This document shows, piece by piece, positions 11,192 through 35,592 of a DNA stretch of 36,187 nt (the stretch's first letter is position 1; each line of letters begins with the position of its first letter). Source of the DNA: Acidobacteriaceae bacterium (lineage in GTDB: Bacteria > Acidobacteriota > Terriglobia > Terriglobales > Acidobacteriaceae); assembly GCA_903970395.1 (NCBI GenBank), contig CAJCIM010000046.1:1-36187 (forward strand), given 5' to 3'. A model generated the notes under the pieces. That model searched no databases. It was not told where the DNA came from and saw only the letters and a list, made by a program, of their open reading frames with translations. The translations under genes and the position numbers were made by a program.

Positions 11192-11390
11192 CTAGGGAAG
11201 CCAAGAGTGATCGCAGTAATCCTTTCAAGCCTGATGAAAGAACAGTCGGTTGGACATGGTCAAGTTTCGACCGTCTGCGTATCAGTCCCGGGGATGTTGG
11301 CTGTGTGAGCCGAATTGTCGCGGACGCTGTTTACATCGAAGACGAACGCGGCGGATTAGCGTGGGAATGTTCCAAAAGGATTGATTGAAG

Positions 11391-12512
11391 ATGCGCTACG
11401 GTTTTTGGCTACCCGTCTTCGGCGGCTGGCTTCGCAACATCGACAACGAGCAGATGCCCGCCACGTGGGAGTACGTGAGCGGCCTCTGCCAGCAGGCTGA
11501 GTCTCTCGGCTACGACCTTACTCTCATCGCGGAACTGAACCTCAACGACATCAAGGGCGTCGAGGCCGACTCGCTCGATGCGTGGACGACCACCGCCGCG
11601 CTCGCTGCCGTGACGAAGAAGCTTGAGCTGATGATTGCCGTGCGTCCGACATTTCACAACCCGGCGCTGCTCGCGAAGCAGGCTGCGTGTCTCGACCGCA
11701 TCAGCGGTGGCCGGCTCACGCTCAACGTCGTCAGCAGCTGGTGGCGCGATGAGGCCGTCAAGTACGGCATCCCCTTCGACGAGCACGATGAGCGCTACGC
11801 CCGCACGGAAGAGTGGCTCGACGTGCTGCTGAGCTGCTGGAAGCAGCAGCATACCTCGCATAGCGGCCGCTTCTACAACATCGACGACAACATCCTCTCG
11901 CCCAAGCCGATGCCCCAACGTACCTACTCCGGTATCGAAAAACTGGGTGCCCCATCTTCGCCTGCGGCCTCATCGCAGGCTAAGGTGGGTTTGCAGGGTT
12001 TCTCCGGCCTGCCAACGCTCTACGCCGGTGGTGAGAGCGAGACCGCGAAGAACCTCATCGCCTCCAAATGCGACGCCTACCTGATGCACGGCGACGATCC
12101 GAAGACCATCGCTGCCAAGGTTGATGATATGAAGGCCCGCCGCGCAAAGCATCCGCATCTGGCGCCGCTGATCTTCGGCGTCACTGGCTACTGCATCGTG
12201 CGCGACAGCGAAGCCGAAGCGAACAGGGAAGTGGACCGCATCACTGCGCAGCCTGATCCTTCACAATCGCCCGCAGGCTACGCGAACTTTCAGCAGTGGG
12301 TCACCGGCTCGCAACTGGAAAAGAAGCTGAGCATCCGCGACTACTCCGTCTCCAATCGCGGCCTGCACAGCGGCATGATCGGTACACCCGAGCAGGTGAA
12401 ACAGCGCCTCGCGGACTTCGAAGGCGCAGGCTGCTCTCTGGTGCTGATGCAGTCTTCACCGCAGCACATCGAGATGGAGCGCATCTCTGCCCAGGTGATG
12501 CAGCGGAGCTAG
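11391..12512 (+). CDS. LLM-class flavin-dependent monooxygenase with an in-frame repeat insertion
   Basis: A luciferase-like (LLM) flavin monooxygenase of 373 residues. The start MRYGFWLPVFGGWLRN, the segment RPTFHNPALLAKQAACLDRISGGRLTLNVVSSWW and the YAGGES motif place it near the SfnG/SsuD alkanesulfonate and dimethylsulfone monooxygenases, which need reduced FMN from a reductase. The ATG at 11391 follows AAGGA; the open frame before it begins with TTG. Residues about 184-200 (LGAPSSP to AKVG) are encoded by a 45-bp palindromic repeat. They fall in the loop between the PKPMPQ segment and PTLYAGGES, where homologues go straight from one to the other. About 15-25 residues are thus extra, but no frame is broken and the enzyme may still work. 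Confidence 0.9.
   Translation: MRYGFWLPVFGGWLRNIDNEQMPATWEYVSGLCQQAESLGYDLTLIAELNLNDIKGVEADSLDAWTTTAALAAVTKKLELMIAVRPTFHNPALLAKQAACLDRISGGRLTLNVVSSWWRDEAVKYGIPFDEHDERYARTEEWLDVLLSCWKQQHTSHSGRFYNIDDNILSPKPMPQRTYSGIEKLGAPSSPAASSQAKVGLQGFSGLPTLYAGGESETAKNLIASKCDAYLMHGDDPKTIAAKVDDMKARRAKHPHLAPLIFGVTGYCIVRDSEAEANREVDRITAQPDPSQSPAGYANFQQWVTGSQLEKKLSIRDYSVSNRGLHSGMIGTPEQVKQRLADFEGAGCSLVLMQSSPQHIEMERISAQVMQRS
11945..11989 (+). repeat. 45-bp palindromic repeat inserted in frame in the monooxygenase gene
   Basis: The repeat starts with GGGTGCCCC and ends with AAGGTGGG. The outer stem pairs CCCATCTT with AAGGTGGG with one T-G wobble. The inner stem pairs GCCTGCG with CGCAGGC perfectly around a loop holding CTCATCG. 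The same 45 bp with five changes recurs in glmS. It is read as GAPSSPAASSQAKVG and contains no stop in this frame, though a TAA lies in another frame. Confidence 0.9.
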
Positions 12513-12538
12513 CTCCGGGTTCCGCCCGGGACCCGGAG
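12513..12538 (+). terminator. hairpin directly after the monooxygenase stop
   Basis: CTCCGGGT and ACCCGGAG pair perfectly over 8 bp around a 10-nt loop, starting with the first base after the stop codon. There is no T run, so termination strength is uncertain; it may instead protect the 3' end of the mRNA. Confidence 0.45.
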
Positions 12539-12602
12539 AGGTAATACCACACTATTTGTTGCGGGTTGCTACTTATCCCTTCAACAGCGTACCCTTCTGC
12601 GC

Positions 12603-14081
12603 ATGATGAACCGCCGTCACTTCCTGCTCTCCGCCGCTGCCACGGCGACGCTGCCGCAGCTGCGTTCGCTTGCACAGGCACCCGCCACGCTCACCCTGCA
12701 CACCGATAAGCGCGGCCCCATGGTGCCTGCCAACTTCATCGGCCTCTCGTACGAGACGCAACAACTCTCCGACCCCAACTACTTCACCGCGGCAAACACC
12801 GGCCTCGTCGCGCGGCTCCGCGAGCTCGCTCCGCACGGCGTCCTTCGCCTCGGCGGCAACACCTCCGACTACGGCTTCTGGAAGCCCACACCCACCTCAA
12901 CGCCGCCGCCACGCGCCAAGCGTGAGTACAAGCTCGGTGACCCGCCGCCCGATCTCTACTACGGCGTCACGCCCGAGGCTGTACGCAACCTGCGCGCCTT
13001 CCTCGACGCTACCGGCTGGACGTGCCTCTACGGCATCAACCTCGGCACCAACACGCCGCAGCTTGCAGCGGATGAGGCTGCCTTCGTCGCGAAGACACTC
13101 GGCAACAAGCTGGAGTACTTCCAGGTCGGCAACGAAGCGGATCGCTTCGCCTCGACCATCCGCGACCCCAAGCTCACCGGCCATCCTTGGAACGCCGATC
13201 CCTTCCTCGACGAGTGGCTCACCTTTGCCAAGGCGATCTTGGCGCGCGTGCCTGATGCAAAGTTCGGCCTTCCCGACGTCGCGAGCAACGCCGAGTGGAT
13301 CTCCGCCGTGGGCGACCGCCTGCAGAACAACCCCATCCGCGAGCACGTCGCGTCCGTCTCGCACCACTACTACATAGGCGGTCCGCCCTCGAACCCGGAG
13401 ATGACCATCGAGCACATCCTCAAGTCCGATCCGCGTGTTCCCAGCGATGCCGCCCTCGTGCGCGCATCAGCCGACAAGCTGCACACGCACTACCGCATGA
13501 CCGAGGGAAACACCTGCTATCGCGGCGGCAAGCCCGGCGTGTCGGATGTCTTCGCCGCAGCACTGTGGTCGGCGGACTATCTGCTGCTGCTCGCCTCTCT
13601 GGGCTACGCGGGTGTGAACCTGCACGGCGGCGACGGACAGATGGTCGCCAACTCGCTCGGCGGCAAACTTCCCGGCGATGACATCGTTCTTGCCGAGCAC
13701 GGCGATCCCACCACGCATCCGCACCCGTACTACACGCCCGTCGCGCACATCGGCGACAGGTACTTGCTGGAGCCGGTCGCCTTCGGCATGCGCTTCGCCG
13801 GCCACTTCGCTGGCGCCAGCATCGTCCCGGTCGACTTCAACCCCGGCAGCGTGAACGCTACAGCCTACGCCGCGAAGCGGGCCGACGGCACGACTATCGT
13901 CGCGGTCATCAACAAGGACCTCTCGCAGGACCTCGCGCTCAACCTGCCGGGCTTCCACGCGGAGTACGCTCTCACCGCGCCAGCAGCAAGCTCGCGACAG
14001 GCGTCCCTCGCAGAGACCACGCAACCATCGCTTACCCACACTCTCCCGCATACGTCGGCGGCTATCTTCCGTAGCCGATAG
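12603..14081 (+). CDS. exported GH79-family glycoside hydrolase (beta-glucuronidase/heparanase-like)
   Basis: A 492-residue protein with the hallmarks of GH79. The first residues (NRRHFLLSAAATATLP, then SLAQA) look like a Tat signal, so it should be exported folded. The catalytic TIM barrel carries FQVGNEAD, with the likely acid/base at Glu178, and RMTEGNT, with the likely nucleophile at Glu301. The C-terminal beta-domain (VDFNPGSVNATAYAAKRADGTTIVAVINKD) fits the GH79 C domain. Characterised relatives, including one from Acidobacterium capsulatum, remove glucuronic acid from glycans. Two ATG codons lie in tandem at 12603 and 12606; no clear ribosome site separates them. The gene converges on the TonB-dependent receptor and could work with it on the same polysaccharide, which is inference. 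Confidence 0.88.
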   Translation: MMNRRHFLLSAAATATLPQLRSLAQAPATLTLHTDKRGPMVPANFIGLSYETQQLSDPNYFTAANTGLVARLRELAPHGVLRLGGNTSDYGFWKPTPTSTPPPRAKREYKLGDPPPDLYYGVTPEAVRNLRAFLDATGWTCLYGINLGTNTPQLAADEAAFVAKTLGNKLEYFQVGNEADRFASTIRDPKLTGHPWNADPFLDEWLTFAKAILARVPDAKFGLPDVASNAEWISAVGDRLQNNPIREHVASVSHHYYIGGPPSNPEMTIEHILKSDPRVPSDAALVRASADKLHTHYRMTEGNTCYRGGKPGVSDVFAAALWSADYLLLLASLGYAGVNLHGGDGQMVANSLGGKLPGDDIVLAEHGDPTTHPHPYYTPVAHIGDRYLLEPVAFGMRFAGHFAGASIVPVDFNPGSVNATAYAAKRADGTTIVAVINKDLSQDLALNLPGFHAEYALTAPAASSRQASLAETTQPSLTHTLPHTSAAIFRSR

Positions 14082-14094
14082 TCATCGTTACACG

Positions 14095-14140
14095 CACCAA
14101 CAGCAAGGGCGCCGATCTCTCGGCGCCCTTGCTGTTGGTG
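14095..14140. terminator. perfect 21-bp bidirectional terminator hairpin
   Basis: Arms 14095-14115 and 14120-14140 are exact reverse complements over 21 bp around a 4-nt loop. They sit in the 73 bp between the convergent GH79 and receptor genes, so the hairpin can end transcripts from both sides. It is unusually long and GC-rich, and T runs are short. Confidence 0.85.
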
Positions 14141-14154
14141 GTTGATGGATGGTT

Positions 14155-17100
14155 TTAGAAGACGATCCGCGCACCCAGCTGCACCTGGCGAGGCTGGCTG
14201 TTCGCCGCTACCGCCGTGATGTAGCCGAAGTTGCTGGCCGTCGCGCTCGACACGTTCGGTGTTGAGAACACCGGGTGGTTCAGAGTGTTGAAGGTCTCAA
14301 AGCGCAGCTGCAGGTAGGTCGAATCGGTGAAGTGGAAGTTCTTCAGGATCGACGCATCCAGGTTGTTGAAGCCATCGCCGCGAACCCACGAGAGCGTCTG
14401 CGGCAGTGTGCGGTAGTGGAAGGTGTACTGTCCGTTGATGAACTGCGAGCCGTCGCAAGTGCCGGTGGTTGGGCAGGCCTTGACGTTGCCTGTGACAAAG
14501 TCCGCAACGCTTAGAGCAGGCGTGCCAGTTTGGCTGCTAGATGAGGGGACAGGCGATGAGTTGCGTGTCTGGTTCGAGATCTGCCGCAACGTTACACCAG
14601 GCTGTAGCGGGATGTCGGCGGAGAACTCCACCGGCGGTCCGCTCTGGTACTGGTAGATGCTGTTGATCACGAAGCCACCCAGCAACTCATCCATCAGGCG
14701 GCTACCGCCGAAGCTGAACTGTTTGCCCTTGCCGAAGGGCAGCTCGTACGTGCCGCCCACGGTGAAGTGGTGAGTATGGTCGAACGGAGAGATGCGGCGC
14801 GTGGTCGTCGTGTCCTCGTCGTTCAGCAGGGTGTCCGCCTCGATCAGCTTGCTGAAGCTGTAGTTGGCTGTCAGCGTCAGACCATGCTTCGCGCGCTGTT
14901 CAATGTGAACAATCGCGCTATTGAAGTAGGACTGACCGATGGTCTGGTTCTGTTCGGTCACCGCCGCCGCTCCAAACTGGGGGAAGGGAACGACCAGGTT
15001 GCCGAGCGTCGTCGTGCTGGCGTTCAGTGAGGCGTTGCCCGGCAACTGACCAGCGAACGGATTCGCTACGGACGCACCATAGTCGAGCCCCAGGCCAATG
15101 TTGGCGTAGGGGTTCGTGCTTAGGTACTGCAGCTTCGTGGCGTTCAGGTTTTGCGTGGCAAGCGGCAGGTGCAGCGCGTGGTTACCAACGAACATTGCCT
15201 CGAACAGTGTGCTGCTGGTGAGCGAGCGCTGTATGCCGAGGTTCCAGCGCTCTGAGTACGGATCGTGCTCGTACGGTGCAAGGAAGCTGATGGCCTGGCC
15301 GAGGAAGGTGCTCGCACCCAGTGACGAACCCACGGCTTGTTGATAACCGCTTGGGAATGGGTTGCTTAGGTTGTTAGCTGGCGTAAGGAAGTTGCTGGCG
15401 GTTGCGGCTACATACGGCGTGGTTGCGCTGAAGCCTTCTTGATTGTTGAGCGCGTTGGAGGAGTAGGTGCCTTGCGCGTTCAGGCTGGCGAGCGTCTCCG
15501 ACTGAACGAAGATGCCGAAGCCGCCGCGCACCACCGTCTTCGGATCAACCGAAAGCGAGAAGCCGATGCGAGGGCTGACGAAGCCACTGTTGTTTGAGTA
15601 GGCTGCGCCCCCAGAGCTCGGGAAGGTCAGGCCGCCAAGTGTGTTGATGTTTGCCACCGTTGCGGTTACGCCACCGTTCGTCTTGGTCTGCGACGTAAAG
15701 GCAGCAGCCGCAGCGGCTGACGCCGAGTTTGTCGCCGTCGTGTTGAAGCCGTTTACCGTGCGGCCGAACTTCTCGCGATACGGTGTGTCGACGTCATAAC
15801 GAATGCCGAGGTTCAAGGTCAGGCGATCGTTCACGCGCCAGTCATCCTGCAGGAAGGTGCCGATGTAGTAGCTGTGGTAGTCGGCGCGGGTGTTGTTATC
15901 GGTCTGACCTGCAGTAGGCAGACCCAGGTAGAAGCTGGCGAGATCTCCGCCGAAGGTCGGCGACGAACCGGAGGTGCCCACGAACTGGTTGCCGAAGTTG
16001 AAAGCGCCTTCCGTGTTGCCGAAGTTCTTCACGCTCAGACGGTACTGACGTCCGTCAAAGCCGATCTTCAGCGTTTGACGACCGATGACCTTCACCATGT
16101 CCGTGAAGATCTGGTAGCTCGTCGTGGGGTCGAACGACGACGTGTTGTCACCCAGCGAAGCATATGACGTTGTATTGGTGCCGACGCTGGCCACCGAGGT
16201 CGAGGTGGTGAATTGTATAGCTGGAAGCTGCTTCTCCTGAGAGGCGGCATCGATTGTGGCAGGCAGGCCCACGCTGGCGGCGCTGTACTGCTCCGCCGGA
16301 GTACCATGCACCTCGTTGAAGAACGTCCAGTTCACACGCGTATCGAAGATCGTCGAAGAGTTCAGTGTGAATACGTTGTCGAGCGTCAGCCCGAAGTTCT
16401 CACGCAGCAGCGTTGTGCCGGTTGCTCCATTGCCGAAGAAGTCGTTCTTCAATTGCGTGCGGTAGTTGTGACGGAAGTCGCCAAAGATGTGGTCGCGAGC
16501 GCTCACGTTGTAGTCGAGGCGCCCAAACTCGTTGTTGTAGTTGTCGATGCTTGGCGCACCGCTGATGTAATTGTTCTGGCCAGTGGCGGCGACGCCGGTG
16601 GTGTTGTTGGGCAATGGATAGAGCTTCAGGTACGCCGCCGCAACCGGATTGATTGCAGCGACGGAGGTGAGCTGGTTGTTGAGAATCGCCTGACGGACCA
16701 CCTGGCCCGAGCTGTTCAGGCTGGCGGTGAAGGGGTTGTAGATCTGGTTGGGGTCGGCGTGCACCTTGCTGTTGCTGCTGTCGGGATTACACATGGCGGT
16801 AGCGGTCGCAGGGTTGTTCGCGAAGCCGTTTGGGCAGCCTGCAGCGAGAGTCTGCGAGAAGTCGCCGTTGCGCTCGGCCTGCGTAGGCACTGTGAGAGCC
16901 TGTGTGTTCGGCGTGGAGTCCTTCAGACGCTCGAAGGCGAAGAAGAAGAAAAGCTTGTCCTTGCCGTTATAAAGCTTCGGCAGAATCACCGGGCCGCCGA
17001 CCGTAAGGCCGTACTGGTTGAAGTGCGCCACAGGCGTGGGAATAACAGGGTTCGCACGGTCGTTGAAATAAAGGTCCGAGTCCAGCGCGGAGACCTGCGA

Positions 17101-17898
17101 GAACTCATACACGCTGCCGTGGAAGGCGTTCGTTCCGCCCTTGGTGATCTGGTTGATGACGCCACCGATCGTGTGTCCAAAGCTAGCGTCCGTATCGAAC
17201 GGACGAATCGAGACCTCCTGCACCGAATCCTGCGTCGGTGCATAGGCCAGCGCGCCCAACAGCGTCAGGTCGGGCGAGCCATCGAGCAGAACCTCGCTCA
17301 CCTGGTTCGGTGTGCCACCCATCGACCACGAGTTGCCGGCGTTGTTGTCGAACGGGTGCACGATCTGTGGCGCAGCCGTGGTGATCACGCCCTCTGAAAG
17401 CTCCGTCAGTGTCGTCGGGGTGCGGCCATTCAGTGGCAGGTTCGCGACCGACTCTGTCGTAATGACCTGTCCGACCGATGCGTTTGCCTGGTCGACAAGC
17501 GAAGCCTCTGCATTGACCGTCACGGTCTGGTCCGTTTCTCCCACCTGCAGCGTCATGTTGACGATAGGGTGGGCCTGGCTCTCCAGAGTAATGCCGTTGC
17601 GCACAGTCTGCTCGAATCCGCTGGCCGTCACAGAGATCGAATACGTGCCCGGCAGCAGGAACGGCACCACATACTGGCCTGCGCTGTCGCTGGTGGTCTT
17701 GTTGACGGTGCCGGTACTGGTCTCGCGCACCGTTACGGTCGCTCCGGGCACCACAGCGCCCGTGGGATCCGCAACTGCGCCGCTAATGGTTCCGCGGAAC
17801 TCCTGTGCGCTGGCTGTGGGTGGTATTAGACCGATTGAGAGAAAGAGTGCCAGGGTCAACGTACACGTTGCCCAAGCCGATCGTAGAGAGATTCGCAT
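14155..17898 (-). CDS. Oar-like TonB-dependent receptor with carboxypeptidase-regulatory domain
   Basis: A 1247-residue outer-membrane protein. The signal peptide ends in PPTASAQ. Residues about 33-120 are a carboxypeptidase-regulatory-like (CarboxypepD_reg) domain (GTISGAVADPTGAVVPGATVTV, GQYVVPFLLPGTYSI). A plug domain (LPLNGRTPTTLTELSEGVI, VLLDGSPD) follows, then a long barrel that closes with the terminal aromatic signature QVQLGARIVF. This domain order and length are typical of the large Oar-like receptor families expanded in Acidobacteriota. They take up or bind oligosaccharides, peptides or siderophores; the ligand here is unknown. AGGAG precedes the ATG. The gene is single and faces the GH79 gene. 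The barrel is rich in Asn, Ser and Thr, as usual for surface loops. Confidence 0.93.
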   Translation of the reverse strand: MRISLRSAWATCTLTLALFLSIGLIPPTASAQEFRGTISGAVADPTGAVVPGATVTVRETSTGTVNKTTSDSAGQYVVPFLLPGTYSISVTASGFEQTVRNGITLESQAHPIVNMTLQVGETDQTVTVNAEASLVDQANASVGQVITTESVANLPLNGRTPTTLTELSEGVITTAAPQIVHPFDNNAGNSWSMGGTPNQVSEVLLDGSPDLTLLGALAYAPTQDSVQEVSIRPFDTDASFGHTIGGVINQITKGGTNAFHGSVYEFSQVSALDSDLYFNDRANPVIPTPVAHFNQYGLTVGGPVILPKLYNGKDKLFFFFAFERLKDSTPNTQALTVPTQAERNGDFSQTLAAGCPNGFANNPATATAMCNPDSSNSKVHADPNQIYNPFTASLNSSGQVVRQAILNNQLTSVAAINPVAAAYLKLYPLPNNTTGVAATGQNNYISGAPSIDNYNNEFGRLDYNVSARDHIFGDFRHNYRTQLKNDFFGNGATGTTLLRENFGLTLDNVFTLNSSTIFDTRVNWTFFNEVHGTPAEQYSAASVGLPATIDAASQEKQLPAIQFTTSTSVASVGTNTTSYASLGDNTSSFDPTTSYQIFTDMVKVIGRQTLKIGFDGRQYRLSVKNFGNTEGAFNFGNQFVGTSGSSPTFGGDLASFYLGLPTAGQTDNNTRADYHSYYIGTFLQDDWRVNDRLTLNLGIRYDVDTPYREKFGRTVNGFNTTATNSASAAAAAAFTSQTKTNGGVTATVANINTLGGLTFPSSGGAAYSNNSGFVSPRIGFSLSVDPKTVVRGGFGIFVQSETLASLNAQGTYSSNALNNQEGFSATTPYVAATASNFLTPANNLSNPFPSGYQQAVGSSLGASTFLGQAISFLAPYEHDPYSERWNLGIQRSLTSSTLFEAMFVGNHALHLPLATQNLNATKLQYLSTNPYANIGLGLDYGASVANPFAGQLPGNASLNASTTTLGNLVVPFPQFGAAAVTEQNQTIGQSYFNSAIVHIEQRAKHGLTLTANYSFSKLIEADTLLNDEDTTTTRRISPFDHTHHFTVGGTYELPFGKGKQFSFGGSRLMDELLGGFVINSIYQYQSGPPVEFSADIPLQPGVTLRQISNQTRNSSPVPSSSSQTGTPALSVADFVTGNVKACPTTGTCDGSQFINGQYTFHYRTLPQTLSWVRGDGFNNLDASILKNFHFTDSTYLQLRFETFNTLNHPVFSTPNVSSATASNFGYITAVAANSQPRQVQLGARIVF

Positions 17899-18283
17899 CT
17901 CTGGCTGCTCCTGTTGTAGTACAAACCGGCGTGTCGTTCGACCGGGATGAGGGTTTAAGCGTGCAGCGGTTTATGCACCGGTTTACGGTGTCTCTTCGCT
18001 ACACTTGTCTGGAAGGCTTAGGCACGCAGTTTTCTGCGTTACGGCCCCTTCGGTCGCCGAAGTTGTTAAGAGTTCGGCACGGTTGGAGATTATCGTCTCC
18101 AAAGGCGACACTTGTCAAACAGAATTGCCTAGCTGTCTTACTGATATTCGCACTGTAATAGACGCCACTGCCGACAGAGGTGTTTATGAGACGGCCTCAT
18201 CTGGGAAAAGCTACGACCGCCCTGTCCGCCCTCTGTGAGATTCGCCACAGTCGTGCTCAAGATGTGCATCTACACTGTTCACT
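17899..18283. promoter_or_regulatory. divergent promoter region of the receptor and glmS
   Basis: About 385 bp between divergent genes must hold both promoters. I see TTGTCA near 18114 and small dyads (GGAGA...TCTCC near 18089-18105), but no convincing pair of promoter boxes. No glmS ribozyme could be recognised by eye. Confidence 0.4.
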
Positions 18284-20251
18284 ATGTGTGGAATCGTTGG
18301 TTACATTGGGCCTAAGGCCTGCGTCCCCGTCATTATGGAAGGCCTTGCCCGCCTGGAGTATCGCGGTTATGACTCCGCAGGCATCGCCGTCGCCGGTGGC
18401 GGCGAGCCTCTACAGCTGCGCCGCGCCCCCGGCAAGCTCCGCAACCTCGCCGAGATCCTCGCCAAAGACCCGGTGCACGGCACCTACGGCATCGGCCACA
18501 CACGCTGGGCCACGCACGGCCGCCCCACGGAAGAGAACGCGCACCCGCACCGCGACGGTACAGGCACACTCGTCGTCGTGCACAACGGCATCGTGGAGAA
18601 CTACCTCACGCTGAAGAACGCGCTCATCGCCAAGGGCCACAAGTTCTCCTCGGAGACCGACACCGAGATCATCGCGCACGTCATTCAGGACGAATTAGAA
18701 CTCGCCGCAGCATTGGGTGCCCCATCTTCGCCGATGGCCTCATCGTCGGCTAAGGTGGGTTCGACCACCGACTTCGACTCCGCCGAGGCCGTCGTTACCG
18801 CGCCAGCATCGCTGCCCCTCGAAGAAGCCGTGCGCCGCGCCGTCAAGCGCCTCACCGGAGCCTTCGCCATCGGCGTGCTCTCCGCCAACGAGCCCGACAA
18901 GATGGTCGCAGCTCGCATGGGACCGCCGATAGTCCTAGGTCTCGGCGAAGGCGAGTTCTTCCTCGCCTCCGACGTCCCCGGCATTCTCCACCACACCCGC
19001 AACATCTACTTCCTCAACGACCACGAGGTCGCCACCCTCACCACCTCTGGCGTCACGCTCACCGACTTCGACGGCAAGCCCAAAACCATGCAGCCGCAGC
19101 GCATCACCTGGGACCCCATCCAGGCCGAAAAAGCCGGCTACAAGCACTTCATGCTCAAAGAAATCAACGAGCAGCCGCGCGCCGTCCGCGACACCACGCT
19201 CGGCCGCGTCTCGCTCGACTCCGGCCGCGTCTTCCTGCCCGACATGAAGATCACGCCCGAAGAGTTCAAAGCCGCCACCGGCATCACCATCGCCGCCTGC
19301 GGCACCAGTTGGCACGCCGGGCTCGCCGGCAAGTTCATGATTGAGCGCCTCGCGCGCCTCCCCGTCGACGTCGACTACGCCAGCGAGTACCGCTACCGCG
19401 ACCCCATCCCAAACCCATCCGAGCTCGGCCTGCTCATCACCCAGTCCGGCGAAACCGCCGACACCATCGCCGCGCAGCACGAGCTTATCGCCAAAGGCTC
19501 CAAAACGCTCGCCATCTGCAACGTCGTCGGCTCCGCCGTCACCCGCCTCGCCGCCGGAGTCATCACCACCAACGCCGGCCCGGAGATCGGCGTCGCCAGC
19601 ACCAAAGCCTTTACAGCCCAGCTCACCGCGCTGTTCACACTGGCGCTGTATCTCGCGCAGGTGCGCGGCACCGTCACGTTTGAAACATCACTCTACCTCG
19701 TCGGCGAGCTCGCAAAAATCCCCGGCAAGATCGAAGAGATCCTCCGCACCGTCGACGACCAGTGCGCGGAGCTGGCCAAATCCTTCTCCACCGCACGCGA
19801 CTTCCTCTTCCTCGGCCGCGGCATCCACTACCCCATCGCGCTTGAAGGCGCCCTCAAGCTCAAGGAGATCTCCTACATCCACGCCGAAGGCTACCCCGCC
19901 GGCGAGATGAAGCACGGCCCCAACGCCCTCATCGACGAAACGCTCCCCGTCGTCTGCATCGCCACCCAGGACCCCAACGACCCCAGCTCCGTCCTCAAGT
20001 ACGAAAAAACCCTCTCCAACATCCAGGAAGTAACCGCCCGCTCCGGCCGCGTCATCGCCATCGCCATCGAAGGCGACACCCACATCGGGCAGCTGGTCGA
20101 GCACACCATCTACATCCCCCAGTCGCACGAACTCCTGCTGCCTATCCTGGAAGTCGTCCCGCTGCAACTGTTGGCGTATCACATTGCTGTAAGACGAGGC
20201 TGCGACGTCGACCAGCCGAGGAATCTGGCGAAGAGCGTGACGGTCGAATAG
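18284..20251 (+). CDS. glmS: glutamine-fructose-6-phosphate aminotransferase with an in-frame repeat insertion
   Basis: GlmS makes glucosamine-6-phosphate from fructose-6-phosphate and glutamine, the first step to cell-wall UDP-GlcNAc. The protein starts MCGIVGYIG with the catalytic Cys2 of the glutaminase domain. It contains HTRWATHG, the two sugar-isomerase domains ([29 protein letters not shown]) and the family C terminus LAKSVTVE. It has 655 residues, about 45 more than E. coli GlmS. Most of the excess lies between the segments [13 protein letters not shown] and [12 protein letters not shown] of the glutaminase domain. It includes residues 143-160, which come from the 45-bp repeat, plus a tail of low complexity. 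The site is a surface loop in known structures, so the essential enzyme is presumably active. Confidence 0.96.
18715..18759 (+). repeat. 45-bp palindromic repeat inserted in frame in glmS
   Basis: Identical to the copy in the monooxygenase gene except for five bases, all in the inner stem (GCCGATG with CGTCGGC, one T-G wobble). The read-out is [15 protein letters not shown], in the same frame as the other coding copy. Three consecutive pairs of the stem are changed on one or both sides while pairing is kept. Confidence 0.92.
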
Positions 20252-22747: not shown

Positions 22748-22786
22748 GGGTGCCCCGCTAATGACAGTCTCATCGGCATGAGCGGG
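22748..22786 (+). repeat. GGGTGCCCC hairpin repeat, 39-bp form
   Basis: GGGTGCCCCG starts the element. CCCGCTAATG pairs with CATGAGCGGG except for one A-G mismatch, around a loop containing CTCATCG. A second 39-bp copy at 23797 matches it except for three positions, and both continue with AGCGATGC. It lies shortly after the stop of the small exported protein gene. Confidence 0.85.
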
Positions 22787-22826
22787 AGCGATGCTAGCCA
22801 CGCCCGAGCAGGTCTACAATCCCCGC

Positions 22827-23796: not shown

Positions 23797-23835
23797 GGGT
23801 GCCCCGTTCATGACAGTCTCATCGTCATGAGCGGG
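23797..23835 (+). repeat. GGGTGCCCC hairpin repeat, 39-bp form
   Basis: CCCGTTCATGA pairs with TCATGAGCGGG over 11 bp with one T-G wobble; the loop is CAGTCTCATCG. GGCGGGCGGCCCA lies about 20 bp upstream, as in other copies. A 31-residue open frame without similarity (23664-23759) ends just before that left edge, much like the tail stub beside the other copy. Confidence 0.87.
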
Positions 23836-23859
23836 AGCGATGCCGGGTGTGCCACGTCT

Positions 23860-24759: not shown

Positions 24760-24954
24760 CTATACTTAACTCAGGAGACGCTCCAGGCACTTCACTCTCC
24801 ACTACTGTCTACCCACTACTGTCTGTCCCCTATCCCCTTTATTTGCAAAATCATACCCACAACCGCATTAGAATCATCACTTACCCCCGGGATACCCCGG
24901 TAAGTGGCTGATTCCATTCAAGCCGTCCGCGAAAAAAGGGAGGGGGGAGGGGTA
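24760..24954 (+). repeat. composite repeat, copy A (about 195 bp)
   Basis: Shares with copies B and C these blocks in order: CTATACTTAA, a variable CT-rich part, TATCCCCTTT, TTTGCAA, ATCATACCC, CAACC, a long hairpin (24871-24914, arms GAATCATCACTTACC and GGTAAGTGGCTGATTC with a small mismatch), ATTCCATTCAA, and a GGGAGGGG end. It is the most diverged copy. It lies in the 552-bp stretch 24603-25154 between TumE and the RAYT, where no gene is supported. Confidence 0.88.
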
Positions 24955-25067: not shown

Positions 25068-25107
25068 GGGTGCCCCATCCATACGCGGCTTTTGGCGGAT
25101 GGGTGGG
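25068..25107 (+). repeat. GGGTGCCCC repeat just upstream of the RAYT
   Basis: GGGTGCCCCATCC starts the element; CCCATCC (25074-25080) pairs with GGATGGG (25097-25103) and a second GTGGG follows. GGCGGGTGGCCCA lies about 35 bp upstream. It ends 47 bp before the RAYT start codon. The loop (GCGGCTTTTGGC) differs from that of the other copies. Confidence 0.8.
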
Positions 25108-25154: not shown

Positions 25155-25584
25155 ATGCCGAGCAATCTGAAGCGGTTTCAAACCGGAGGAAGCTACCACT
25201 TCATCACCTTCAGGTTGTTACCGGCGGCTCCCGTACCTCGACAGCGATTCTTCCCGCATCGTCTTCGAAGAAGAGCTCGATAAACTCCAGGTCAGGCACC
25301 AGTTCTATCTCTTCGGCTACGTGCTGATGCCGAACCACGTGCATCTTCTCCTCAGCGAACCGAAACGGCACACCCTCAGCGCCACGTTGAACGTCCTCAA
25401 GGCCGAAACCTCCAAGCATCTCAAGGGCGACCGCAAGCAATTCTGGCAGGTTCGCTACTACGACTTCAGCGTCCTCACCACCGGCAAGCAGCGAGAGAAG
25501 CTGCGCTACATCCATCGCAACCCCGTCGTGCGCGGCCTTGTCGAAAAGCCCGAGGACTGGCAGTGGAGCAGCTACCGTCACTAA
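25155..25584 (+). pseudogene. frameshifted REP-associated tyrosine transposase (RAYT, Y1_Tnp)
   Basis: The ATG at 25155 opens MPSNLKRFQTGGSYHFITF, the usual start of RAYTs. Near 25211-25213 the frame shifts by one: TTCAGGTTGTTACCGG has one extra G relative to the expected Phe-Ser-Cys-Tyr-Arg. The correct continuation lies in the next frame: YRRLPYLDSDSSRIVFEEEL, then LMPNHVHLLLSEPKRH with the HUH histidines. The C-terminal part LRYIHRNPVVRGLVEKPEDWQWSSYRH holds a candidate catalytic Tyr. The remainder runs intact to the stop at 25582. With the shift corrected it encodes about 142 residues, near full length. RAYTs cut and move short palindromic REP elements, and copies of two repeat families lie just upstream. 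One recent error or a slippage site could explain the shift. Confidence 0.85.
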
Positions 25585-27158: not shown

Positions 27159-27190
27159 TCGTCACAAGCCTGTCCAGCCCACCAATTCTG

Positions 27191-27229
27191 GACGCCCCAT
27201 TCATGCGCGTTCGTTGCACATGGGTGGGG
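27191..27229 (+). repeat. GGGTGCCCC-family hairpin, diverged copy
   Basis: GACGCCCCATTCATG begins the element. CCCATTCATG pairs with CATGGGTGGG over 10 bp with two T-G wobbles, around a loop with CGTTCGTT. It lies between the acyltransferase and the DUF4097-like gene. A 6-bp dyad (GTCCAG and CTGGAC) lies just before and overlaps its left edge. Confidence 0.7.
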
Positions 27230-27303
27230 TAAGGCCAAATCGACGGAACCATAACCTCACCCCGCACGTATCTCCTCTCGACGTCGCAATCGAAGGAGAC
27301 CTC

Positions 27304-30523: not shown

Positions 30524-30701
30524 CTATACTTAATTTAGGGGGTCAAAGAAGGCGAGCTCTACTCCCTCTGCCTCTCTATCCCCTTTTGTTTGCAATATCA
30601 TACCCGCAACCAGCACCGAATCAGCCACTTAACCCCGGGATACCCCCGTAAATGACTGATTCCATTCAAAACTCCCTCGAAATTGAGGAGGGGGGAGGGG
30701 T
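30524..30701 (+). repeat. composite repeat, copy B (about 178 bp), overlapping coaE
   Basis: Carries the same blocks as copies A and C: CTATACTTAA, GAGCTCTACTC, CTCTGCCTCTCTATCCCC, TTTGCAATATCATACCCGC, the hairpin 30618-30662 (arms GAATCAGCCACTT and AAATGACTGATTC), CATTCAAAACT and the GGGGGGAGGGGT end. It overlaps the end of coaE by 36 bp and provides that gene's stop. It is nearly identical to copy C in the left 120 bp. Confidence 0.92.
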
Positions 30702-31331
30702 ACCTGCCGTCAGCTCATGCCAGACGCTCTCCACCTGAGCTTCCAGCTCACCGAGCGATCCATCGTTGCGCACCACCAGGCACTCCGTTGCATGGCTCTC
30801 GGTGTCCTGCAGCGCCAGCCGCCTGCGCGCATCAGCCTCCAACGCCGTACGCTCCTCGGCCGACGGAATGCGCCCAGCCAGGACCCTCGCAACGAATCGC
30901 GAGATCTTTCGCGCCTCGGAAGCGACAACCAGAACAATCCGATCGAACCGCTGCGCAACAGTTTGTCCGTAAGTAGAGAAGATCAGAGCAGACTCAACGA
31001 CAACGATCTTGTCAGTCGCAGCAAATGCAGCAACCTGCTTCGCCTGCTCTGCAAGCACCGCTGGATGAACGATCGTGTTCAGCTCCGCAACGCGCGGCGA
31101 AGCTGGATCAAACGCCAGCTGCGCGAGCTTGCGACGATCCAGCGTTCCATCCGTAGCAACAACCTCGCTGCCGAACTGCGCAACGATCGCGTTGTAGATG
31201 CTTTCGCCAGGTTGCATCATCTCGCGCGCAGCTTCGTCGGACGAGAGCACAACAGCTCCGCGAGCCGCAAGCATCGCCGCAACGGTCGACTTGCCGCTCC
31301 CAAGATCGCCCGTAAGCCCAACGCGCAGCAT
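30666..31331 (-). CDS. coaE: dephospho-CoA kinase
   Basis: A 221-residue dephospho-CoA kinase, the last step of coenzyme A synthesis. The P-loop (GLTGDLGSGKST), the DEAAREMM region and HPAVLAEQ with the substrate-binding basic residues are present, as is the VVESALIFSTYGQ strand. The C terminus is peculiar: after VWHELTA the last residues GTPPPSSISREF, and the TGA stop, are encoded by the CCCCTCCCCC end of composite repeat B on the other strand. The original end therefore was replaced or extended by the insertion. The extra tail should not disturb the kinase core. The start is 5 bp after the folD stop. Confidence 0.93.
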   Translation of the reverse strand: MLRVGLTGDLGSGKSTVAAMLAARGAVVLSSDEAAREMMQPGESIYNAIVAQFGSEVVATDGTLDRRKLAQLAFDPASPRVAELNTIVHPAVLAEQAKQVAAFAATDKIVVVESALIFSTYGQTVAQRFDRIVLVVASEARKISRFVARVLAGRIPSAEERTALEADARRRLALQDTESHATECLVVRNDGSLGELEAQVESVWHELTAGTPPPSSISREF

Positions 31332-35398: not shown

Positions 35399-35592
35399 GG
35401 CACCCCTCCCCCTACCTTTGCGGCGGAGTAGTTTTGAATGGAATCAGTCACTTACGGGGGTATCCCGGGGTCAAGTGGCTGATTCGGTTTGGGTTGCGGG
35501 TATGATATTGCAAGTAAAGGGGATAGAGAGGCAGAGGAGTCGAGGAGAAGATGAGTAGAGCTTGCCTGCTTTGCCCCCTAAGTTAAGTATAG
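35399..35592 (-). repeat. composite repeat, copy C (about 190 bp), in inverse orientation
   Basis: Starts at the base after the stop of the single-pass protein gene with GGCACCCCTCCCCC. It then contains GAATCAGTCACTT (35441-35453) pairing with AAGTGGCTGATTC (35473-35485). GGGTATGATATTGCAA, AAAGGGGATAGAGAGGCAGAG, GTAGAGCTTGCC and TTAAGTATAG follow. As in copy B, the CCCCTCCCC end faces the 3' end of a gene. The stretch 35593-35761 beyond it holds nothing recognised. Confidence 0.92.

Follow-up and report, generated by a model that had tools for sequence, protein, structure and literature searches.

The 36,187-nucleotide stretch of DNA analyzed here (contig CAJCIM010000046.1 of assembly GCA_903970395.1, from a soil bacterium of the Acidobacteriaceae), referred to throughout as the window, contains two copies of a short hairpin-forming repeat that resembles repetitive extragenic palindromic (REP) sequences. 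Each copy lies in frame within a protein-coding gene, one encoding a flavin-dependent monooxygenase and the other being glmS. Further hairpins and the remnant of a gene for a REP-associated tyrosine transposase (RAYT) lie downstream (Table 1).

The two copies differ at 5 of 45 positions, as a preliminary description of this DNA had stated, and all five differences are in the inner stem, which reads GCCTGCG/CGCAGGC in one copy; the other has GCCGATG/CGTCGGC, including one G.T pair. Pairing is thus preserved in both. The two open reading frames (ORFs) run through the repeat in one shared frame and yield nearly the same peptide, again in agreement with the preliminary description. The solved structure of an E. 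coli-type GlmS (4amv) has 2 residues at the place of the insert, compared to 37 in the GlmS of the window; residues 146–174 of the latter are modeled as a low-confidence coil in a predicted structure of modest quality (mean pLDDT 68). In the monooxygenase, the loop preceding TLYAGG is variable among relatives, and the insert is common to the window's genome and Granulicella paludicola DSM 22464 (G015) but absent in G007, a single-contig genome used here for comparison.

Table 1. Hairpins, host genes, and RAYT remnant of the window
Feature	Position	Strand	Remarks
Host gene 1, LLM-class flavin-dependent monooxygenase	11385..12512	+	Best NCBIfam match SfnG, under model cut-off
REP-like hairpin copy, 44/45-nt	11945..11989	+	In frame within host gene 1; peptide GAPSSPAASSQAKVG
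Host gene 2, glmS	18284..20251	+	Insert lies between the equivalents of residues 139 and 142 in the solved structure 4amv
Second REP-like hairpin copy	18715..18759	+	In frame in glmS; encodes 15-residue peptide
Sister-subfamily hairpin GGTGCCCCGCTAATG...GCGGGAGCG	22749..22790	+	3' of an ORF
Second GGTGCCCCGCTAATG...GCGGGAGCG hairpin copy	23798..23839	+	62-nt repeat, 89% identical
Sister-subfamily hairpin GGTGCCCCATCC...GGATGGGTGGG	25069..25107	+	Directly 5' of RAYT remnant
RAYT remnant	25171..25581	+	137-residue open frame, HVHLL and RYIHRNP; N-terminal part in another frame
Degenerate superfamily hairpin ACGCCCCATTCATG...CATGGGTGGGG	27190..27230	+	Ends approximate

Structure, Length, and Reading Frame of the Repeat

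Copies were collected with the pattern GGTGCCCCATCTTN{8,40}AAGGTGGG, which matches 40 times (26 forward, 14 reverse) in the window's own genome (G000; 3.82 Mb in 214 contigs), so that the repeat has many further copies there; a backwards control pattern gave 0 matches. The arms common to the copies are GGTGCCCCATCTT ... AAGGTGGG, but their invariance carries no weight because arms and foot are fixed by the search pattern. Every copy is able to form the outer stem CCCATCTT / AAGGTGGG, including one T.G pair, and an inner stem that usually consists of 6 or 7 pairs closed by a 7-base loop. The inner stem covaries: among 38 coding copies of 44 nt, pair 18/32 is GC in 32, TA in three, CG in two, and GT in one. 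The core measures 40–48 nt in G000 and G007, and many copies carry a tail of approximately 11 nt. The exact pattern is present in 16 of 101 genomes, the window's own included, distributed as 11 of 28 in the same genus, which named records identify as Granulicella, five of 33 in other genera of the family, and none of 40 beyond the family. Among the matches listed in named records are Edaphobacter and other Acidobacteriota besides Granulicella, as well as single ones in records labeled Rhodanobacteraceae, Planctomycetota, and Variovorax. In 400 kb sampled from G007, a relaxed search yielded a single weak match.

Coding status was called with a home-made codon score, trained on sequence of G000 and G007, together with an open-frame test. 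The sample comprised 214 distinct copies (40 from G000, 23 of the 26 in G007, 41 selected from nine other genomes, and 110 from named records), of which nine lay too close to an end and were dropped. A mostly extragenic location, as in REPs, holds for the 42-nt class but not for the 44-nt class: over all records, 38 of 50 copies of 44 nt are coding, compared to four of 107 copies of 42 nt (Fisher p ~2e-21). The corresponding fractions are 36/46 and 1/51 in the Granulicella genomes of the set, named records apart, and 24/24 and 1/33 in G000 and G007.

All 46 accepted coding copies (38 of 44 nt, three of 41 nt, one of 38 nt, and four of 42 nt) are in sense orientation and read the right arm as AAG GTG GGN, that is, in the Lys-Val-Gly frame. 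Copies of 3n+2 length are read in phase 0 (GAPSS..KVG) and 42-mers in phase 1 (VPHLR..AKVG). Among the 38 coding 44-mers, the frame in use is open in 38, another sense frame in 37, and one antisense frame in 38; since three frames are open and a single one is used, openness alone cannot set the frame. Fifteen of these 38 encode the identical peptide GAPSSPTASSSAKV, and GAPSS occurs in 38 of 38, although it is fixed by the pattern. In each of the 24 exact 44-mers of G000 and G007 the frame is kept and free of stops. The 41- and 38-nt coding copies come from records of Edaphobacter and other Acidobacteriaceae, so the frame rule reaches past Granulicella; G007 holds an additional 41-nt copy, in frame near a protein C terminus and below the coding threshold. 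With a looser gene caller, 59 copies fell within called genes; 58 were in sense orientation, and the remaining one is a 57-nt match in Variovorax. This caller also placed nine 42-mers from the Granulicella genomes of the set within called ORFs, all sense. In a second set of copies, allowing up to three mismatches, seven of 11 copies of 44 nt are coding in phase 0, with one (L409) just below threshold and three non-coding, whereas none of 16 rows of 42 nt is coding. One 42-nt row of this set duplicates an earlier count, and three rows, although exact copies, were newly examined with it; two 42-nt rows with three mismatches (C36, C188) were left out.

The partition by length has exceptions on both sides. 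That 42-nt copies are all intergenic was rejected, since four of them are read in phase 1 as coding sequence, namely L096:1985 and, from named Granulicella records, L183, L244, and L268; a coding label (cod+2) at L135 was set aside, as its frame has only 7 codons upstream. That 44-nt copies are never intergenic was rejected as well: non-coding examples comprise eight copies with a different type of stem sampled from Granulicella sp. S156 (G010), two in the named record of that strain, one each in G016 and G021, and three degenerate ones in G000 (L384, L410, L412). On contigs C4, C13, C15, and C17 of G010, hairpins of 40 to 44 nt also form inverted pairs, at least six in number, that are REPIN-like (resembling paired REPs), with starts approximately 150–210 bp apart; the sampled 44-nt members of these pairs have the other stem (ACGCGCG type) and are non-coding. 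One inverted pair occurs in G000, flanking a RAYT gene, and none among the 26 copies of G007.

Intergenic copies are oriented as well. In 103 of 155 such rows, a called gene ends no more than 600 bp upstream of the element, which is sense to that gene in 94 (12/13 in G000, 6/6 in G007, 17/18 in other Granulicella genomes, and 59/66 in named records); 45 of the 94 genes end within 50 bp of the element. Sense orientation to the downstream gene was found in 57 of 68 intergenic copies. The bias thus belongs to the whole family and not to genic copies alone. Peptide selection is unnecessary to account for it, yet offers the simplest explanation for the use of a single frame. A skew by chromosome strand was also observed: in G007, 24 of 26 exact copies (binomial p 1e-5) and 24 of 28 mismatch-tolerant 42- and 44-mers lie on one strand. 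Called genes are evenly split by strand in the 400-kb sample of this genome, so gene orientation alone does not explain the skew, and tool error was rejected as its source, the reverse-complement pattern having mirrored the count. Neighboring copies on the same contig of G000 agree in strand in 14 of 15 cases.

Host Proteins and Their Loops

The preliminary description had the repeat entering protein genes, including the essential glmS, and many further housekeeping hosts can now be added. Hosts scoring above curated model cut-offs are GlmS, HisS, QueA, PolA, IlvB, TrmFO, UvrA, RimO, an HscA-type chaperone, and an amidase of the hydantoinase/carbamoylase family. TrpE falls just below its cut-off, and an Lhr-like helicase and a B12-dependent ribonucleotide reductase, the latter with two copies, also fall below theirs. 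Other hosts are a DUF4953 protease, a cytochrome/TPR protein, a beta-lactamase-fold/NamZ fusion, and a TGS-domain protein that we take to be ThrS. G007 adds HemE and a DinB-like polymerase (below cut-off), and other species add LysS, ProS (in two species), RimO again, RecR, MnmG, a RecQ-family helicase, and an ABC exporter (below cut-off). Six loci (L386, L408, L409, L116, L136, L138) gave no family-model match at the thresholds used. The NamZ fusion, a frame of 1050 residues (L105, on contig C109 of G000), carries three copies: two 44-mers in phase 0 and, close to the end of the contig, one 42-mer in phase 1.

Comparison with homologues, as had been proposed for GlmS and the monooxygenase, found orthologues with and without the insert. 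Eighteen insertion sites of G000 were compared with G007, G015, and G001; depending on the species, the orthologous loop is short, holds the same element, or holds another repeat-like peptide. G007 has the same element at or adjoining five sites (GlmS, TrpE, the M20 amidase, the NamZ fusion, and the second Lhr site) and short loops or unlike peptides at others; Lhr and TrmFO, for example, have SSRPERSEVERPAS there, and the reductase has VISTEA...GAVERPA. Of the 27 GlmS sequences that 30 loci yielded, three contain the GAPSS peptide, as does one partial GlmS from a metagenome-assembled genome of G. sapmiensis (G025). It is found in none of six GlmS shown from other genera of the family and is lacking in the E. 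coli-type enzyme, the one compared from beyond the family; in the sequences compared it is thus no general feature of the protein. The element is located at residue index 144 in G000 and G007, 151 in G016, and 154 in G025; these shifted positions suggest that one tolerant loop may have received more than one insertion.

The glmS copies (window:18716 and L134:16043) and the trpE copies (L108:3115 and L130:12180) are identical at 43 of 44 positions between G000 and G007, compared to 84–91% in their flanks, an excess that is only suggestive given that the search pattern favors such a result. Other in-frame peptides recur in the same loops at loci of G007, G010, G014, G017, and G021 (e.g., L289, L291, L294, L056, L039, L073, L077), namely SSRPERSAVERPA, VILSEARSAQSK, NPYSLIPNPS/GIREQGLGI, and KGTGFSPSGG...GALAPE. 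Coverage by 13-mers recurring in six or more contexts is 14% in the loop regions and 3.8% in the rest when G000, where the element is present by design, is included; by genome, the values are 16% versus 5% in G007, 3.5% versus 2.3% in G015, and 2.3% versus 2.7% in G001.

RAYT Genes and Sister Hairpins

Five Y1_Tnp matches were identified in G000, and three of them pass the RAYT model NF047646 (cut-off 80 bits): contigs C160 (98 bits) and C108 (94 bits) and the frame in the window (86 bits), whose gene looks broken near its start. A RAYT of G006 scores 101 bits, and two RAYTs match the TnpArep structure 4er8. RAYT genes above the cut-off are present in 17 of the 28 genomes of the genus. Hairpins of the superfamily lie within 500 bp of six of 25 RAYT loci above the cut-off, on both sides in five of the six; random controls contained such a hairpin in 64 of 2000 pieces of G007 and 217 of 2000 pieces of the hairpin-rich window. 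The RAYT frame on C160 is open and has exact copies on both sides, that on contig C11 of G021 has one exact copy on one side and a one-mismatch copy on the other, and sister hairpins adjoin the RAYT at the remaining four loci. By coordinates, an exact copy lies approximately 216 bp from the RAYT at C12:2531 of G025. At L440, L451, L453, and L455 (G006, G025, G018, and G002), each RAYT is adjoined by its own variant of a GGTGSCCCAT...GTGGG hairpin, as if repeat and enzyme had diversified together.

YYG immediately precedes 177 of the 214 copies, compared to 29% of background G. This fits cleavage at CT or CC next to a REP, which part of PMC8266576 describes for E. coli TnpAREP (at CT adjoining the REP) and for a Marinomonas REP whose foot was changed to GTGG (at CC).

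Four sites of the window (22748, 23797, 25068, 27191) had been presented as relatives of the repeat. They are indeed hairpins of its superfamily, but they belong to sister subfamilies, and none has the exact arms. A long repeat of 76–124 nt, in three copies of approximately 80% identity, one of them inverted (24878–24954, 30581–30704, and 35399–35522), is unrelated to the hairpin.

Origin of the Intragenic Copies

The preliminary description had named the Rickettsia palindromic elements (RPEs) as the known analogue. In both, a palindromic repeat has indeed entered unrelated housekeeping genes in frame and contributes one conserved peptide, but RPEs are approximately 105–150 bp in length and belong to another phylum, whereas the Granulicella unit is approximately 44 nt and its genomes contain RAYT genes. 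REP/RAYT systems are the closer kind, because the window has a broken RAYT and the RAYT of C160 has exact flanking copies. Like REPs and REPINs, the repeat is a short palindrome with an unpaired foot, present in tens of copies, many directly 3' of genes, with hairpins adjoining RAYT genes and part of the copies in frame within genes. Intragenic REPs have been published for other phyla, with hosts similar to those found here (UvrA, DNA polymerase I, tRNA synthetases, and RNA-modifying enzymes; PMC3733652, in two of its sections). The Granulicella repeat differs in its foot, GGTGC, and in that almost all of its coding copies belong to a single length class, every coding copy being sense and read in the same frame, with another length class filling the spacers; those sections of PMC3733652 do not report such a length partition between genes and spacers. 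REP classes without GT[AG]G have been described in part of PMC6006769, and we therefore file the repeat as REP-like and not as a canonical REP. The same part of that paper describes in-frame REPs of tnpAREP subclass 2.4, which likewise preserve the reading frame but lie within transposase genes, whereas the Granulicella copies are spread across cellular genes. In Neisseria, one of the two Correia element lengths (107 and 155 bp) is genic and the other almost exclusively intergenic, with open frames given as the reason (PMC2229807, in part); these elements are far longer and have terminal repeats, whereas the Granulicella length classes are usually one stem base pair apart. Granulicella aggregans appears in a table of REP counts, in a part of PMC12306157 that does not mention genic copies. 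No published report of in-frame palindromic repeats in Acidobacteriota was found, the subscription literature being mostly outside the search. In-frame REPs are thus known elsewhere, and the partition by length, strand, and frame looks like a new form of them.

We consider it probable that the repeat is a REP-type Granulicella hairpin copied in trans by RAYT proteins and kept in genes according to length, strand, and frame. The mobile unit would comprise the unpaired 5' foot GGTGC, then the outer stem and the variable inner stem. RAYT (TnpAREP-like) HUH nucleases would most likely copy it in trans, acting on single-stranded DNA, and copies would insert with one strand facing transcription, often directly after a stop codon or in protein loops. 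For a genic copy to survive, its length would have to preserve the frame, its strand and phase would have to exclude a stop, and its peptide would have to be bland; the 44-nt form would satisfy all three conditions and the 42-nt form usually would not, which would leave the latter mostly in spacers. The data establish the repeat family, the covariation of its hairpins, the partition by length, strand, and frame, orthologues that lack the element, and RAYT genes adjoined by superfamily hairpins. We infer RAYT as the mover, single-stranded DNA exposed in transcribed genes as the target and source of the sense bias, and peptide selection behind the single frame.

Several observations weigh against this. 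Transposition has not been observed. The unpaired foot, GGTGC, is neither the GTAG nor the GTGG of canonical REPs. Superfamily hairpins are lacking within 500 bp of 19 of the 25 RAYT loci, an earlier scan of 34 Y1_Tnp loci found no hairpin at 26, and RAYT presence does not track the repeat, being above the cut-off in eight of 11 genomes with exact copies and nine of 17 without. None of the 24 exact 44-nt copies of G000 and G007 lies in a spacer, which frame selection alone does not explain. Long alignments between these two genomes are 77–87% identical, and no exact pair of empty and filled sites could be aligned.

A more far-reaching version is possible, and we put it forward tentatively: that the 44-nt form is a gene-adapted REP subfamily, with a stem one base pair longer that makes it 3n-compatible, and breeding almost exclusively in genes. 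Its sense copies would probably enter loops of DNA-repair, tRNA, and other housekeeping proteins via the non-template strand during transcription, and these loops would serve as landing pads shared by several unrelated repeat families. The idea of shared landing pads was weakened on recheck: 13-mer coverage of loops and of the rest barely differs in G015 and G001, which leaves G007 and individual sites inspected by eye in G010, G014, G017, and G021 as its basis. We think it unlikely that the repeat is instead a stand-alone palindromic element like the RPEs, independent of RAYT, with another route of spread and its own short reading frame. In-frame copies with one conserved peptide in many housekeeping genes would suit such an element, RPEs being reported to behave likewise (PMC2229807 and PMC10969869, each in part), and three of the 11 genomes with exact copies have no RAYT above the cut-off; against it stand the 44-nt unit, in place of 105–150 bp, and the exact copies or sister hairpins that flank RAYT genes in several genomes.

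That a useful peptide motif was duplicated and kept by selection, with the hairpin as a by-product, is improbable. Although the identical peptides and the single frame of all accepted coding copies are what it would predict, the stem changes are compensatory at the DNA level, the same hairpin is also intergenic, the hosts have no common function, and orthologues lack the peptide or have others. An insert could also go untranslated, by ribosomal skipping or by removal from the RNA; mitochondrial byp hairpins offer an analogue, and a stable GC-rich hairpin within genes would suit this reading. Skipping, however, requires neither a kept frame nor a stop-free insert, and 24 of 24 exact 44-mers in G000 and G007 have both; bypass or intron-like removal was rejected because frame and openness are conserved, and we regard it as highly improbable. 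That errors of assembly or gene calling, or mere chance given a high GC content, produced the pattern is scarcely credible: the assembly in 214 contigs and the home-made codon score leave some room for this, but the control pattern found nothing, many hosts exceed curated family cut-offs, and the glmS and trpE inserts recur in the single contig of G007.

The repeat supplies many natural in-frame insertions of one 15-residue peptide in named, often essential enzymes, and the orthologues that lack the insert or hold another make possible tests of selfish-DNA entry, loop tolerance, and strand targeting by RAYT. Should the 44-nt form prove to be gene-adapted, and its loops shared landing pads, essential proteins would have their surface loops continually rewritten by several unrelated repeat families. 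The copies also add the Acidobacteriota to the phyla in which intragenic REPs are known, with a strikingly similar list of hosts.

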